DNA of 64,000 nt, from the NCBI RefSeq assembly GCF_000970205.1, contig NZ_CP009512.1, positions 2,604,001 through 2,668,000 of the forward strand. The letters run 5' to 3'. Made by a program: the position numbers and the translations under genes. Positions 21,872 to 63,717 of this stretch are shown one piece after another. Under the pieces are notes generated by a model. It saw nothing but the letters and a program-made list of their open reading frames with translations, had not been told where the DNA came from and did not search any database. This stretch comes from Methanosarcina mazei S-6. Its GTDB lineage: Archaea > Halobacteriota > Methanosarcinia > Methanosarcinales > Methanosarcinaceae. Every line of letters begins with the position of its first letter. Position 1 is the first letter of the stretch.

Positions 21872-22087
21872 TCACTTATGTTTCACGGTTCAGCCCTGCC
21901 AGCAGGACCACATCCCAACGGGACCTAATCCCGAAAATGAAACATGCGATACAACTGAATCATTTGATTTAAAGCTTTGCCCCCTTCAAAGCTTTCAGGA
22001 AGAATCAGTCAATAAGTCAGTCAATAAGTCAATCAATCAAATTTCCAGAAATATATCTCCGGGATTTTCCTGTAAAGATTAACATAC

Positions 22088-33787: not shown

Positions 33788-33864
33788 AGCTCTGAGAATA
33801 GAAAAATTATGCTGCTGTTTTATTTAATTTTGTTAAAAAAGTTATTTAGCTTTGTTAGAAAAGG

Positions 33865-34102
33865 TTGCGTTCCCATCTGAAATACCTGGAGTTTCCGAAA
33901 GGCGTCTAAAAGATTTAACTTTTTGAATTTTTGGTTTGGGAAGAGGTTTGAGGTATTTGACTTGTGGGTTGAGAGTTTTTCAATATTCAGTTATTTTGTG
34001 GGTAGATCTTTTGGAGTAGGTGTTGTTTGCTGGTTGGTGTTCATTTGATGAGAACGCAAGTTATACTATGCACCTGGAGTATATATTATTTTTAACGAAT
34101 AA
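33865..34102. repeat. long non-coding repeat, copy 1 (238 bp)
   Basis: Begins TTGCGTTCCCATCT and ends TTTTTAACGAATAA. It is about 88% identical by eye to copy 2 at 34361-34597, in direct orientation with starts 496 bases apart. Well-conserved blocks include GACTTGTGGGTTGAGAGTTT, TAGATCTTTTGGAGTAGGTG and GATGAGAACGCAAGTTATAC. No conserved reading frame. On the minus strand the copy is preceded by a TATA-like AAATAATATATA, so a minus-strand RNA is possible. Confidence 0.75.
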
Positions 34103-34172
34103 TCGTAATGAGGAGATATAATCATAATAGAACCGGAATAACATTAGTTTAATGATCTAAGATTATATCAGC

Positions 34173-34222
34173 AATATAATAAGTTTGTAATTACAGAAAT
34201 ATAATAAGTTTATAATTACAGA
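34173..34222. repeat. 25-bp tandem repeat, two copies
   Basis: AATATAATAAGTTTGTAATTACAGA-like unit (first 20 bases AATATAATAAGTTTGTAATT) at 34173 and again at 34198 with one change. It lies between the two long repeats. Confidence 0.85.
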
Positions 34223-34360
34223 AATTTTAAAAATTGTGTGATGTTGAAATATTGAAACTTAATGAAACAGTTTGACTTAGGGAATTTCAAAATTGTTAAT
34301 TTAACGTGGAAAATTCAGTGCAGGAAATTTCAGATAATTTTAGGTTAATTTTAAAAGAGT

Positions 34361-34597
34361 TTGCGTTCCCATCTAAATACCTGGAAGTTCCGAAAGGCAT
34401 CTAAAAGATTTAACTTTCTAAGTCTTTAGTTTGGGAAGAGGTTGGAGTTATTTGACTTGTGGGTTGAGAGTTTTTCGTTTTTTAATACTTTAGTGGGGTA
34501 GATCTTTTGGAGTAGGTGTTGTTTGCTGTGGGTGTTCAATTGATGAGAACGCAAGTTATACTACGCATTTGGGGTATATATTATTTTTAACGAATAA
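34361..34597. repeat. long non-coding repeat, copy 2 (237 bp)
   Basis: The second copy of the element at 33865. The ends are conserved exactly (TTGCGTTCCCATCT; GTATATATTATTTTTAACGA), while changes cluster in an AT-rich middle block at about 34478-34498. Conservation of separated blocks with a drifting spacer suggests selection on structure or on binding sites rather than on protein. Confidence 0.75.
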
Positions 34598-34831: not shown

Positions 34832-35950
34832 ATGGAAGAGGTAAATAAAAAAGAACTGAGTGAGCGGGATATTTGCTCAAAGTTTATCACGCCTGCGATC
34901 AAAAGGGCTAACTGGGAAGAAAAACAGATCCGGGAAGAAGTAAACCTTACCAGGGGAAGGATTATTGTTAAAGGTTCATCTGCGAGCAGAGGAAAACCAA
35001 AGAGAGCTGACTATATTCTTTCCTATAAACCCAACCTTCCTCTTGCAGTTGTGGAAGCAAAGAGGAATATTTACACGGTTGGAGAGGGCATGCAGCAGGC
35101 GCTCATGTATGCTGAGATGCTGGACATTCCTTTTGCATTCAGCTCGAATGGGGATGCCTTTTTGCTCCACGACAGGACAGGCACTCTTGGAAAGGTAGAA
35201 GAGGAAATTTCTCTGGACAAATTTCCTTCCCCTGAATTTCTCTGGCGGAAATACTGCGAATGGAAGGGGCTTGACGAAGACAGGCAGAGGATCGTAACCC
35301 AGGACTATTTTTCCGATCGGCAGAAATCCCTGCGATATTATCAGCGTATAGCAATTAACCGGACAATAGAGGCAATTGCAAAAGGGCAGGACAGAATCCT
35401 GCTGGTTATGGCAACAGGTACGGGAAAGACTCTCACGGCATTTCAGATCATCTGGCGCCTCTGGAAGGCAGGGGTGAAAAAAAGAATCCTTTTCCTGGCA
35501 GACAGAAACATCCTTGTTGACCAGACAAAAATTAACGATTTCAAGCATTTCGGGAAGGCAATGACAAAAATCAAGAACCGGGAGGCTGAAAAATCCTACG
35601 AAATTTACCTGTCCCTCTATCAGGCTGTTTCAGGCACAGAAGAAGAGAAAAACATCTACAAACAGTTTTCCCCTGACTTTTTTGACCTTGTGATTGTGGA
35701 CGAATGCCACAGGGGAAGCGCGGCTGAAGATTCCGCATGGAGGGAAATACTCGAATATTTCTCTTCGGCAACGCAGATCGGGCTGACAGCTACCCCGAAA
35801 GAGACAAAAGACGTTTCCAATATCCATTACTTCGGAGAGCCCATCTACACATATTCCCTGATATCCATTAAAAAATCTACGGAATCCCTTTCCTCGGCCT
35901 TCATAGAGCTTCAACCTCATTCAGGATGCGCTTTCCTATATTGGGTTTGA
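34832..35950 (+). pseudogene. hsdR: type I restriction enzyme subunit R (HsdR), truncated
   Basis: Only the amino-terminal third of HsdR remains. The nuclease motif ([20 protein letters not shown], about residues 58-77, PD-(D/E)xK type), Walker [12 protein letters not shown] (about 193), motif II VDECHRG (about 290) and GLTATP are intact. After GEPIYTYSL (about 35861) similarity stops. The last 30 codons are unrelated and run antisense into a nucleotidyltransferase gene. A complete HsdR is about 800-1000 residues and needs the second RecA domain, so this product cannot translocate DNA. HsdM is absent. An HsdS carboxyl-terminal fragment survives at 36324. The break therefore removed most of the locus. 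Confidence 0.88.
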
Positions 35951-36479: not shown

Positions 36480-36512
36480 TAAATATGTTGTGAAAATCTC
36501 TCTCAAAAAATC

Positions 36513-36539
36513 AGTCCTCTTGAGCGTAGCGAAAAGGAC
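36513..36539 (+). repeat. 27-bp palindromic dispersed repeat, copy A
   Basis: Starts AGTCCTCTTGAGCG and ends AGCGAAAAGGAC. GTCCT and AGGAC with flanking TT/AA can form a stem. Identical except for one C/T position to copies at 39819, 39868 and 60859. Confidence 0.9.
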
Positions 36540-36548
36540 ACCGCCCTC

Positions 36549-36630
36549 CCGAGGCGGGACTCGGGAAGGACAGCGGACTTCCGAGGCGGGACTCGGGAAG
36601 GACAGCGGACTTCCGAGGCGGGACTCGGGT
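36549..36630 (+). repeat. 32-bp tandem repeat, two and a half copies
   Basis: The unit starts CCGAGGCGGGACTCGGGAAG and ends GACAGCGGACTT (36549, 36581, and a partial copy at 36613). Each contains CCGAG...CTCGG, able to form a hairpin. It lies downstream of the 27-bp dispersed repeat, the same association seen at 39.9 and 60.9 kb. GC content is far above the surroundings. Confidence 0.9.
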
Positions 36631-36678
36631 GGCAAAACTCGGGGAAAGTTTAAATTGAAAATAAAGAAATATATCAAC

Positions 36679-36975
36679 ATGCAAACCGCAGAAGAAAGGG
36701 AAGAGCTGTTTCGCAAAATTTCCTCTTTTCTAAAAAAATACGGGGCAACCAGAGTATCCATTTTCGGATCTTATGTTAGGGGTGAAGAGAAACCGGAAAG
36801 CGATATAGATGTTCTGGTCGAGTTTGCTGATAGAAAAAGCTTGCTGACTCTGGTTAATATCGAACTGGAACTCTCGGATTATCTGGGAATTAAGGTTGAC
36901 CTGCTGACTGAAAAATCGATAAGTCCTTACCTGATAGATGGAATAAAAAAAGAGGCTAAAGTGATATCTGAATGA
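36679..36975 (+). CDS. mntA: MntA-type nucleotidyltransferase antitoxin
   Basis: 98 residues from the ATG at 36679. The signature [20 protein letters not shown] has G30-S31 and catalytic D42/D44. In the studied MntA/HepT systems the MNT protein adds AMP to a Tyr of the HEPN toxin and silences it. The carboxyl end ([19 protein letters not shown]) is usual. The stop overlaps the start of the HepT gene by four bases (ATGA), so both are made together. An upstream reading to 36490 passes through GC-rich repeats and is not used. Related to the orphan copy at 35901, but clearly diverged. Confidence 0.93.
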
Positions 36976-37322
36976 AAAGGGATGATAGGGTATATCTTAG
37001 CCACATCCTCTTATCTACTTCCTTAATTGAAAAATACACAGCGAATTTAACTGAAGAAGAGTTTCTGTCAAATAGTCTTGTTCAGGATGGTACCATCAGG
37101 CAAATTCAGATAATCGGCGAAGCTACTAAAAATCTATCAAAGCCTTTGAGAGAGAAATATCCGCAAATCCACTGGAGAGGAATAGCAGGTATGAGAGATA
37201 AACTGGTTCACGATTATTTTGGTGTGGATATTGATGCTGTATGGGATACCGTAAAAGAGGATATCCCGACTCTCAAAAAGGTAGTTTTAAAAATTGTTCA
37301 GGATCTAAATGAAAAAGCTTAA
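36972..37322 (+). CDS. hepT: HepT-type HEPN ribonuclease toxin (DUF86)
   Basis: 116 residues of HEPN fold. The active-site motif R75-x4-H80-x-Y82 in [15 protein letters not shown] is complete, and Tyr82 is the residue that MntA partners AMPylate in studied systems. 'IGEATKNLS' and '[13 protein letters not shown]' are typical of the family. It acts as an RNase toxin held in check by MntA. It overlaps the upstream mntA by four bases and lies among other stress and defence genes (restriction remnant, Fic, RelE). Confidence is high, because both partners and all key residues are present. Confidence 0.94.
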
Positions 37323-62188: not shown

Positions 62189-63717
62189 GTAACTATTCAG
62201 GTAGCCTTAACGAGGCTACACATTTTTCCTCGTTCCGAGGAAAAATTGGATATAAAATGATTCCTTTTTAGCTTTATGAAACGTGATGAGATTCTTTCTT
62301 ACTGTGCTTCAAATCCTGAAATTATTGTAGCTTACATTGAGAGTTTAGAATCTCAAGTTAAAGAACTCACTGAAAGACTTGTAGCCTTAGAATCTCGTTT
62401 AAATCAAAACAGTCGTAACAGCAGTCGACCTCCTTCTACTGATTATTTTGTCAAAGAGAAACCTAATCCCAAGAGTCTGCGTAAACCAAGCGGGAAGAAA
62501 CCTGGAGGTCAGGAAGGTCATCCAGGCACGACTCTTGATATGGTTGATCATCCTGAGTAGGTAATAGAACATTCTTTGACCTGCTGCAAAGAATGCGGAT
62601 CTACCCTTGAGAATGTTGAAGTTGAAGCTTATGAGAGAAGACAGGTCTTTGACATTCCTCCCGTAAATCTAATTGTTACAGAACATAAAAGTCAGATTAA
62701 AACCTGTCCTTGTTGTGGAAAGTTGAATAAAGCCGTTTTTCCCGAATCAGTGAAATATCCGGTTCAGTATGGCCCTAATATTTTAGCTTCAGCTATTTAC
62801 TGTAAAAATTACCAGTTTGTTCCTTATGATAGAATTTCTGAGTTATTTGAAGACATTATGGGAATAAAAATCTGTCCTGCTACGATAATTAGAGCAGAAA
62901 GAGAATGTTTCCAGAATTTAGAGGAATTTGAAAACGTTATTAGAGAGAAGTTATTAGCCTCGCCTGTAATCAATTTTGATGAAACTGGTATGAAGATTGA
63001 AGGAAAAAGACACTGGCTTCATGTAGCTTCTAATGAAAAATACACATGTTATTTTGCTCATACAAAAAGAGGAGCAGAAGCAATAGATGCTATGGGAATT
63101 CTTCCGAAGTTTAAGGGAGTAGCAGTTCATGATGGATGGAAACCTTACAACGTTTATGATTGTGATCATGCTCTGTGTAACGCTCATTTACAGAGAGAAC
63201 TTACAGGAATTGAAGAGAACTATAAACAGACATGGGCTAAAGAGATGAATGAACTGCTCACTGAGATGAAGAAATACACTGATGAGTGTAAAGAGCAATT
63301 AAGAGAACCTGATTTTGAGCAAATTAAAGCATTGGAAGAAAGGTTTGATGCAATTATCATTAGAGCGCTTGAAGAAAATCCGCATTCTCTAAATCCTGAA
63401 AAACAGGGAAAACGCGGTAAAAATCCAAAAACAAAATCAAGGAATCTGCTGGATAGGTTTATAGAACACAAAGAAAAGATTCTGAGATTCCTGACAGATT
63501 TGAAAGTTCCATTTGATAATAATCAGGCAGAAAGAGATATCAGGATGATGAAACTACAGCAGAAAATATCGGGAACTTTCAGAAAAGCAATGGGAGCGCA
63601 AGCTTTCTGCAGAATTAGGGCGTACATTTCTACAGGAAAAAAGAACGGTTTACCTGTTTTAGAGGGTATTCGTGCGGCGCTCATAGGAGCGCCGTTAACT
63701 ATACTCTGAGCAGTTAC
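62189..63717 (+). mobile_element. complete IS66-family insertion sequence (1529 bp)
   Basis: The left end is GTAACTATTCAGG. The right end, reversed, is GTAACTGCTCAGAG, so the terminal repeats share GTAACT..TCAG. An 8-bp direct repeat TTTATTTT flanks the element. It contains one transposase frame broken only by a TAG codon. It disrupts the signal peptide of a surface protein gene. Confidence 0.93.
62276..63709 (+). CDS. IS66-family transposase with in-frame TAG at codon 95
   Basis: One frame of 478 codons is interrupted once, by TAG at 62558-62560 between DMVDHPE and VIEHSLTCC. The amino part has a leucine-zipper helix (SLESQVKELTERLVALESRL) and NQNSRNSSRPPSTD, typical of IS66. After the TAG come a zinc finger (CCKECGS ... 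CPCCGK) and the DDE core: first Asp in VINFDETGMKIEGK, second in VHDGWKPYNVYDC, Glu in NNQAERDIRMMK. Methanosarcina can decode UAG as pyrrolysine, so the product may be a 477-residue protein with Pyl95. Otherwise it is a 94-residue fragment with separate initiation downstream. Everything else in the element looks intact. Confidence 0.88.

Follow-up and report, generated by a model that had tools for sequence, protein, structure and literature searches.

To our knowledge, few of the regulatory RNAs of archaea are understood beyond single examples. The sponge RNAs CsrB/CsrC and RsmX/Y/Z occur in several sibling copies and carry repeated GGA protein-binding motifs in hairpin loops, and LhrC and the csRNAs of Firmicutes are multicopy, C-rich sRNAs that pair with Shine-Dalgarno regions. 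For Methanosarcina mazei, a review has counted 242 small RNAs (PMC5867862). Those Methanosarcina sRNAs that have been characterised, namely sRNA154, sRNA162 and sRNA41 of M. mazei, are known to act by an antisense mode (PMC3510493; PMC5867862), and many M. mazei sRNAs code for small proteins (PMC11456600). The gene of sRNA162 adjoins that of an ArsR regulator and is present as one copy each in M. acetivorans and M. barkeri, and its RNA is comprised of three stem-loops with a 39-nt linker (PMC3510493).

Here we analysed a pair of repeats in a window of M. mazei S-6 DNA, the window being the whole stretch of 64,000 nucleotides. From the comparative evidence we consider it likely that these repeats represent a tandem pair of genes for stand-alone noncoding RNAs, which form a multicopy family in Methanosarcina and in one related genus, and that each is encoded on the minus strand, with its own BRE/TATA promoter, and runs from the start of a stem to a T-rich tail. 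Such RNAs would resemble sRNA162 and sRNA171 of M. mazei, which are intergenic, have their own promoter, a length of 191 nt, paralogues duplicated within the genus and a long single-stranded segment (PMC3510493). They differ from sRNA162/171 in lying at other loci, in having several copies in almost all genomes and in possessing a terminal stem, a distinction made by description and not by sequence. No ArsR-family regulator gene was found beside the copies of the M. mazei S-6 genome, whose neighbours are FAD oxidoreductase/HsdR, AI-2E transporter/vWA protein and radical SAM/HTH_45/CobW genes. With CsrB/CsrC and RsmX/Y/Z they share the organisation of multicopy siblings with repeated short motifs, and the CUAYUCC boxes repeated within one RNA may be protein-binding sites as well; however, the motif is a pyrimidine one (CUAYUCC/CUCUUCC), the host is an archaeon, a CsrA-like partner would be hypothetical, and no GGA hairpin array was found in the G-poor interior. 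The several sibling copies and the C-rich unpaired boxes also recall LhrC and the csRNAs, but the loops of the present RNAs are not complementary to ribosome-binding sites beyond base composition (449 genes).

In Rfam 15, the repeats had no match at the gathering score and none above chance at E values up to 5, and none was obtained for 11 related loci, which bears out, for this database, the remark in the sequence-only reading that no known RNA family could be recognised. Elsewhere in the window, Rfam matches were observed to PYLIS_5 (62558-62657) and to the eL15 euryarchaeal ribosomal leader (21882-21933). No published description of the family was found in the literature searched, and individual M. 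mazei members may be among the sRNAs already listed without annotation.

The two copies span about 33850-34102 and 34346-34597 of the window in direct orientation. When copy 1 was aligned by BLAST against its own genome, copy 2 was matched over 247-248 bp with 88% identity and an E value of 3.3e-83, therefore the similarity is far above chance, and a repeat search of the window placed the starts of the copies 495 or 496 bp apart, depending on the segment. These values agree with the sequence-only reading, which had described two direct copies, about 88% identical, with conserved ends and blocks; the blocks are 18-33 bases long. Its observations that both copies terminate, on the plus strand, in GTATATATTATTTTTAACG and that they share no reading frame also held, the longest ATG-initiated ORF in the RNA sense having a median length of 4.5 aa over 124 copies. 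Absent from that reading were the complementarity of the ends within each copy, the three further copies that this genome contains and the genus-wide spread of the family.

The further copies of the M. mazei S-6 genome are a pair at 2,550,889 and 2,549,769 and a single copy at 3,776,947. Matches in a BLAST search of 60 relatives were confined to the genus, in which 30 of 31 genomes were hit. A covariance model (R1) was built from alignment A1 of 55 copies, and by using this model about 130 copies were found in all, distributed over 31 of 31 Methanosarcina genomes (1-8 each) and all four genomes of a second Methanosarcinaceae genus, g21 (3-5 each); no copies were detected in any other genus of the family, and sampling 150 genomes from the order yielded no more. 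The search of Methanosarcina genomes, which had been proposed together with the repeats, thus disposed of the objection that there might be no other genomic copies. Among named records, the promoter-stem pattern was found in Methanosarcina, in MAGs labelled only Euryarchaeota archaeon and in one Paenibacillus; the Paenibacillus match to this 21-base pattern (L169) was taken as chance. The pattern was not found in viral contigs, and plasmid and phage records gave no blastn match at E 1e-5.

The synteny comparison showed that three loci recur across species. The locus of the window lies beside a FAD oxidoreductase gene, the second is between the genes for a vWA-domain protein and an AI-2E transporter, and the third, which is found in g21 too, is between a radical SAM gene and HTH_45/CobW genes. 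Because of these three syntenic loci, the family does not appear to be a mobile element, and the comparison indicates that it is inherited vertically, with local tandem duplication; the tree of class 8A, the class of the window copies, resolves orthology among tandem copies poorly. One genome, G010 (L075-L081), harbours 8 family matches, mostly in new contexts, which amounts to a lineage-specific expansion.

The window pair is adjoined by a truncated type I restriction gene, HsdR, at 34832-35950 (372 aa with a ResIII domain; the counterpart in L038 has 772 aa), which is a neighbour in several genomes and is absent at the other loci. The degraded restriction locus to which attention had been drawn is therefore adjacent as claimed, but of no evident relevance, the constant neighbour being the FAD oxidoreductase gene and the other copies lying elsewhere. 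Two other features were recorded in passing: adjacent ORFs of 161 and 116 aa at 36490-37322 of the window, resembling a nucleotidyltransferase/HEPN toxin-antitoxin pair, and an array of TTACATTATGTATTA with an 18-bp period at G000:C1:3931234-3931428 of the same genome.

All the features of the predicted RNA genes given below are on the minus strand. The covariance model matched copy 1 at 33859-34059 (169 bits) and copy 2 at 34355-34554 (182 bits), and the putative genes were assigned to 33850-34059 and 34346-34554, respectively, with RNAs of about 195 nt (median 197). Read in the RNA sense, the order is a BRE/TATA element (GTTAAAAATAWTATATA), 20 nt, TTGCGTTCTCATC, a G-poor interior of about 170 nt, GRTGRGAACGCAA and the T-rich tail. 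The candidate promoter element, which is conserved across copies, is located at 34079-34097 in copy 1 (CGTTAAAAATAATATATAC) and at 34574-34592 in copy 2, and its TATA distance is fixed, the 3' end of the TATA-like element lying 20 nt ahead of the start of the RNA match in most copies. Archaeal promoters have a usual spacing between TATA box and start site, and for this reason the start was placed at the first bases of the stem; copy 1 is thus predicted to yield an RNA that reads from 34057-34059, and copy 2 one that reads from 34552-34554, each down into the T-rich tail. The tails, presumed to be terminators, are at 33850-33864 and 34346-34360, and TTTT occurs within 16 nt past the stem in 85% of the copies against 25% in the background. 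In classes 8A and 8B, which bear most closely on the window, conservation is about 0.9 in the promoter and RNA and 0.5-0.8 outside. The fixed TATA-stem distance, the tail and this drop in conservation, together with pairing on the minus strand only, support the earlier suggestion of two related minus-strand RNAs behind a TATA box.

The two ends of the RNA are joined by a terminal stem, P1 (GCGUUCUCAU/AUGRGAACGC), of 10-13 bp, which was the only helix predicted by RNAalifold on the 55-copy set. Based on pair counts over 124-126 copies, its 5' strand is at 34047-34059 in copy 1 and 34542-34554 in copy 2, and its 3' strand at 33865-33877 (GATGGGAACGCAA) and 34361-34373, respectively. In the model alignment of 126 distinct copies, 99.4% of 1249 cells are paired, and in controls with the partner slid the pairing falls to 27-52%. 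Four pairs are changed on both sides, a number equalled in 0 of 500 shuffles, although the 5' strand is almost invariant, so that the covariation rests on few double changes among copies related by descent; besides these, 14 further pair types occur. Examples of such changed pairings are GCATTC/GAATGC in L096, GCGTCCCC/GGGGACG in L100 and TTACGTTC/GAACGTAA in L041 and L080. No pair reached significance when 123 copies were aligned globally by sequence and tested for covariation in a tree-aware manner, P1 varying too little and the interior being hard to align, and the pairs were counted on the model alignment instead. The check for covariation that had been recommended was thus positive for P1 as regards compensatory changes and gave nothing significant in the tree-aware form on the full alignment.

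When 12 pairs were scored in each of 124 copies, 43 cells were unpaired in the minus-strand RNA versus 174 in the plus-strand reading, and 142 cells were G-U in the minus-strand RNA. No other result argues so clearly for an RNA, or for the strand on which it is read, as this contrast does. The folding of the window copies was only modestly better than that of shuffles (z -1.5 and -2.4). A promoter of its own at a fixed distance from the RNA 5' end, a structure on one strand with compensatory changes (as seen in the P1 counts and the slid controls) and the absence of a conserved reading frame, all of them marks of a stand-alone noncoding RNA gene, were found here, and from this strong comparative evidence we infer the identity, strand and ends of the RNAs.

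Inside P1, the copies vary in structure. In the classes tested, 43 of 56 copies have P2 (AUCYCUUU/AAAGRGAU), in which double changes from C-G to U-A occur, and P4, an ACUCRC/GUGAGU hairpin, is found in classes other than 8A; class 8A has lost P2 and P4 and kept P1 and the boxes described below. Interior AGGGA repeats complementary to UCCCU near the 5' end were seen in L087, L090, L095, L096 and L082-L085, and alternative pairings are possible in these variants.

The interior contains about 12% G. Three sequences, CUAYUCC, CUCUUCC and AACUUCCAGG, are common to paralogues at different loci, all in unpaired sequence. CUAYUCC is present 1 to 4 times per RNA when one-mismatch forms are counted, and both CUAYUCC and CUCUUCC are enriched over dinucleotide shuffles: box 1 reaches up to 3.5 per RNA versus 0.5 in shuffles, with enrichment in nearly all classes, and box 2 about 0.9 versus 0.0 in most classes. 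In the window, box 1 (CTACTCC) is located at 34013-34019 in copy 1 and 34509-34515 in copy 2, and two conserved blocks form the box 2 region, at 33938-33956 (ATACCTCAAACCTCTTCCC) and 34433-34451, and the box 3 region, at 33885-33902 (CCTTTCGGAAACTCCAGG) and 34380-34397 (CCTTTCGGAACTTCCAGG), respectively. A copy of 265 nt, L041:2832-3096, has its box-2 region duplicated. From these conserved single-stranded boxes it would seem that one partner, most likely a protein, is bound multivalently; as the identical repeated sites outlast the inner helices, a common, probably protein, partner is favoured over many mRNA targets.

Upstream of many copies is an inverted repeat, TAACA/TGTTA (TAACATTATGTGTTA), which is present with at most 3 mismatches in 71 of 124 copies versus a background of 0.003 per 100 nt. 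In the copies bearing it, the palindrome is mostly at exactly -60 (three classes) or at -48, touching the BRE (most others), as counted from the RNA 5' end; it was seen upstream of copies in L036, L108, L087, L082, L092, L025 and others. In class 8A, that of the window, it is degenerate or absent, with any match in only 2 of 17 copies, and the sole exact instance in the M. mazei S-6 genome is at the single copy. The palindrome suggests co-regulation by a shared transcription regulator, the window pair not being covered. A wider palindrome regulon in this genome was rejected, the matches with 1-2 mismatches outside the family looking like chance.

The main rival to a common protein partner is that the RNAs are trans-acting antisense sRNAs, which would base-pair through their open C/A-rich loop with a small number of particular mRNAs, masking ribosome-binding sites or stabilising the targets. 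We regard this as possible, at clearly less than an even chance. It is the mode known from the characterised Methanosarcina sRNAs (PMC3510493; PMC5867862), and the unpaired, G-poor interior with ACCUC-like strings in its boxes would suit it. Against it, the complementarity of the loops to 449 translation-initiation regions of the genome was no higher than that of shuffled loops, a test that, with gene starts called crudely, may have overlooked a few true targets; outside the family, the genome contains complements of boxes 2 and 3 at control frequency only, and the complement of the loop-1 block is absent. A generic anti-Shine-Dalgarno action was rejected on the k-mer complementarity to the 449 translation starts compared with coding interiors and shuffles, and long antisense targets were rejected on the box and loop-1 complements.

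Readings in which the repeats are not noncoding RNA genes fare worse. The tandem direct repeats and the palindrome upstream of many copies would be in keeping with cis-acting DNA elements, either the paired protein-binding arrays offered as the alternative in the sequence-only reading or origin/segregation iterons. However, the substituted arms still pair only as minus-strand RNA, with G-U allowed, and would give A-C mismatches on the other strand, a strand specificity that binding arrays leave unexplained; moreover, the unit is bounded by a promoter and a T-rich tail and its copies lie at three unlinked loci, so that we think this reading improbable. Still less credible is a small MITE-like mobile element with inverted ends, in spite of the multiple copies per genome, the complementary ends and, in L037, a transposase-like gene adjoining a tandem copy. 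Across species, and in part in the sister genus, orthologous copies have the same flanking genes, dispersed non-syntenic insertion was not found, the conserved unit runs beyond the arms into promoter and tail, a genome holds 8 copies at most, and the plasmid, phage and viral-contig searches were negative. Short mRNAs for small proteins, of the spRNA type, would be familiar in M. mazei (PMC11456600), but beyond the very short ORFs mentioned above, 52 of 124 copies have no ATG-initiated ORF at all and the indels among copies do not preserve a frame, which makes this reading very improbable as well.

For the tandem noncoding RNA genes, we propose a mechanism that we hold tentatively, giving it a little less than an even chance. 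The terminal stem would close and protect the RNA and hold open an otherwise unpaired, G-poor loop, and this loop would offer the repeated pyrimidine boxes (CUAYUCC, CUCUUCC and AACUUCCAGG) to one common partner. The partner would most likely be an RNA-binding protein, which the RNA would scaffold or titrate, the sponge or scaffold step being a guess from the repetition of the boxes, and dosage would follow gene copy number and, at most loci, the window's excepted, the shared upstream palindrome. In its full form, an archaeal sponge or scaffold system in which sibling RNAs, many under one TAACATTATGTGTTA regulator, titrate or assemble a lineage-specific protein binding CUAYUCC/CUCUUCC is speculative, and we rate it as rather unlikely. 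The family occurs in all 31 Methanosarcina genomes searched, is conserved in position and is not in Rfam, and with its defined ends, its boxes and, for the most part, a candidate operator, it offers a case in which sibling small RNAs can be tested in methanogens for which genetic tools exist. If the sponge or scaffold system is true, Methanosarcina would have an RNA-based global control with a logic comparable to that of Csr/Rsm.
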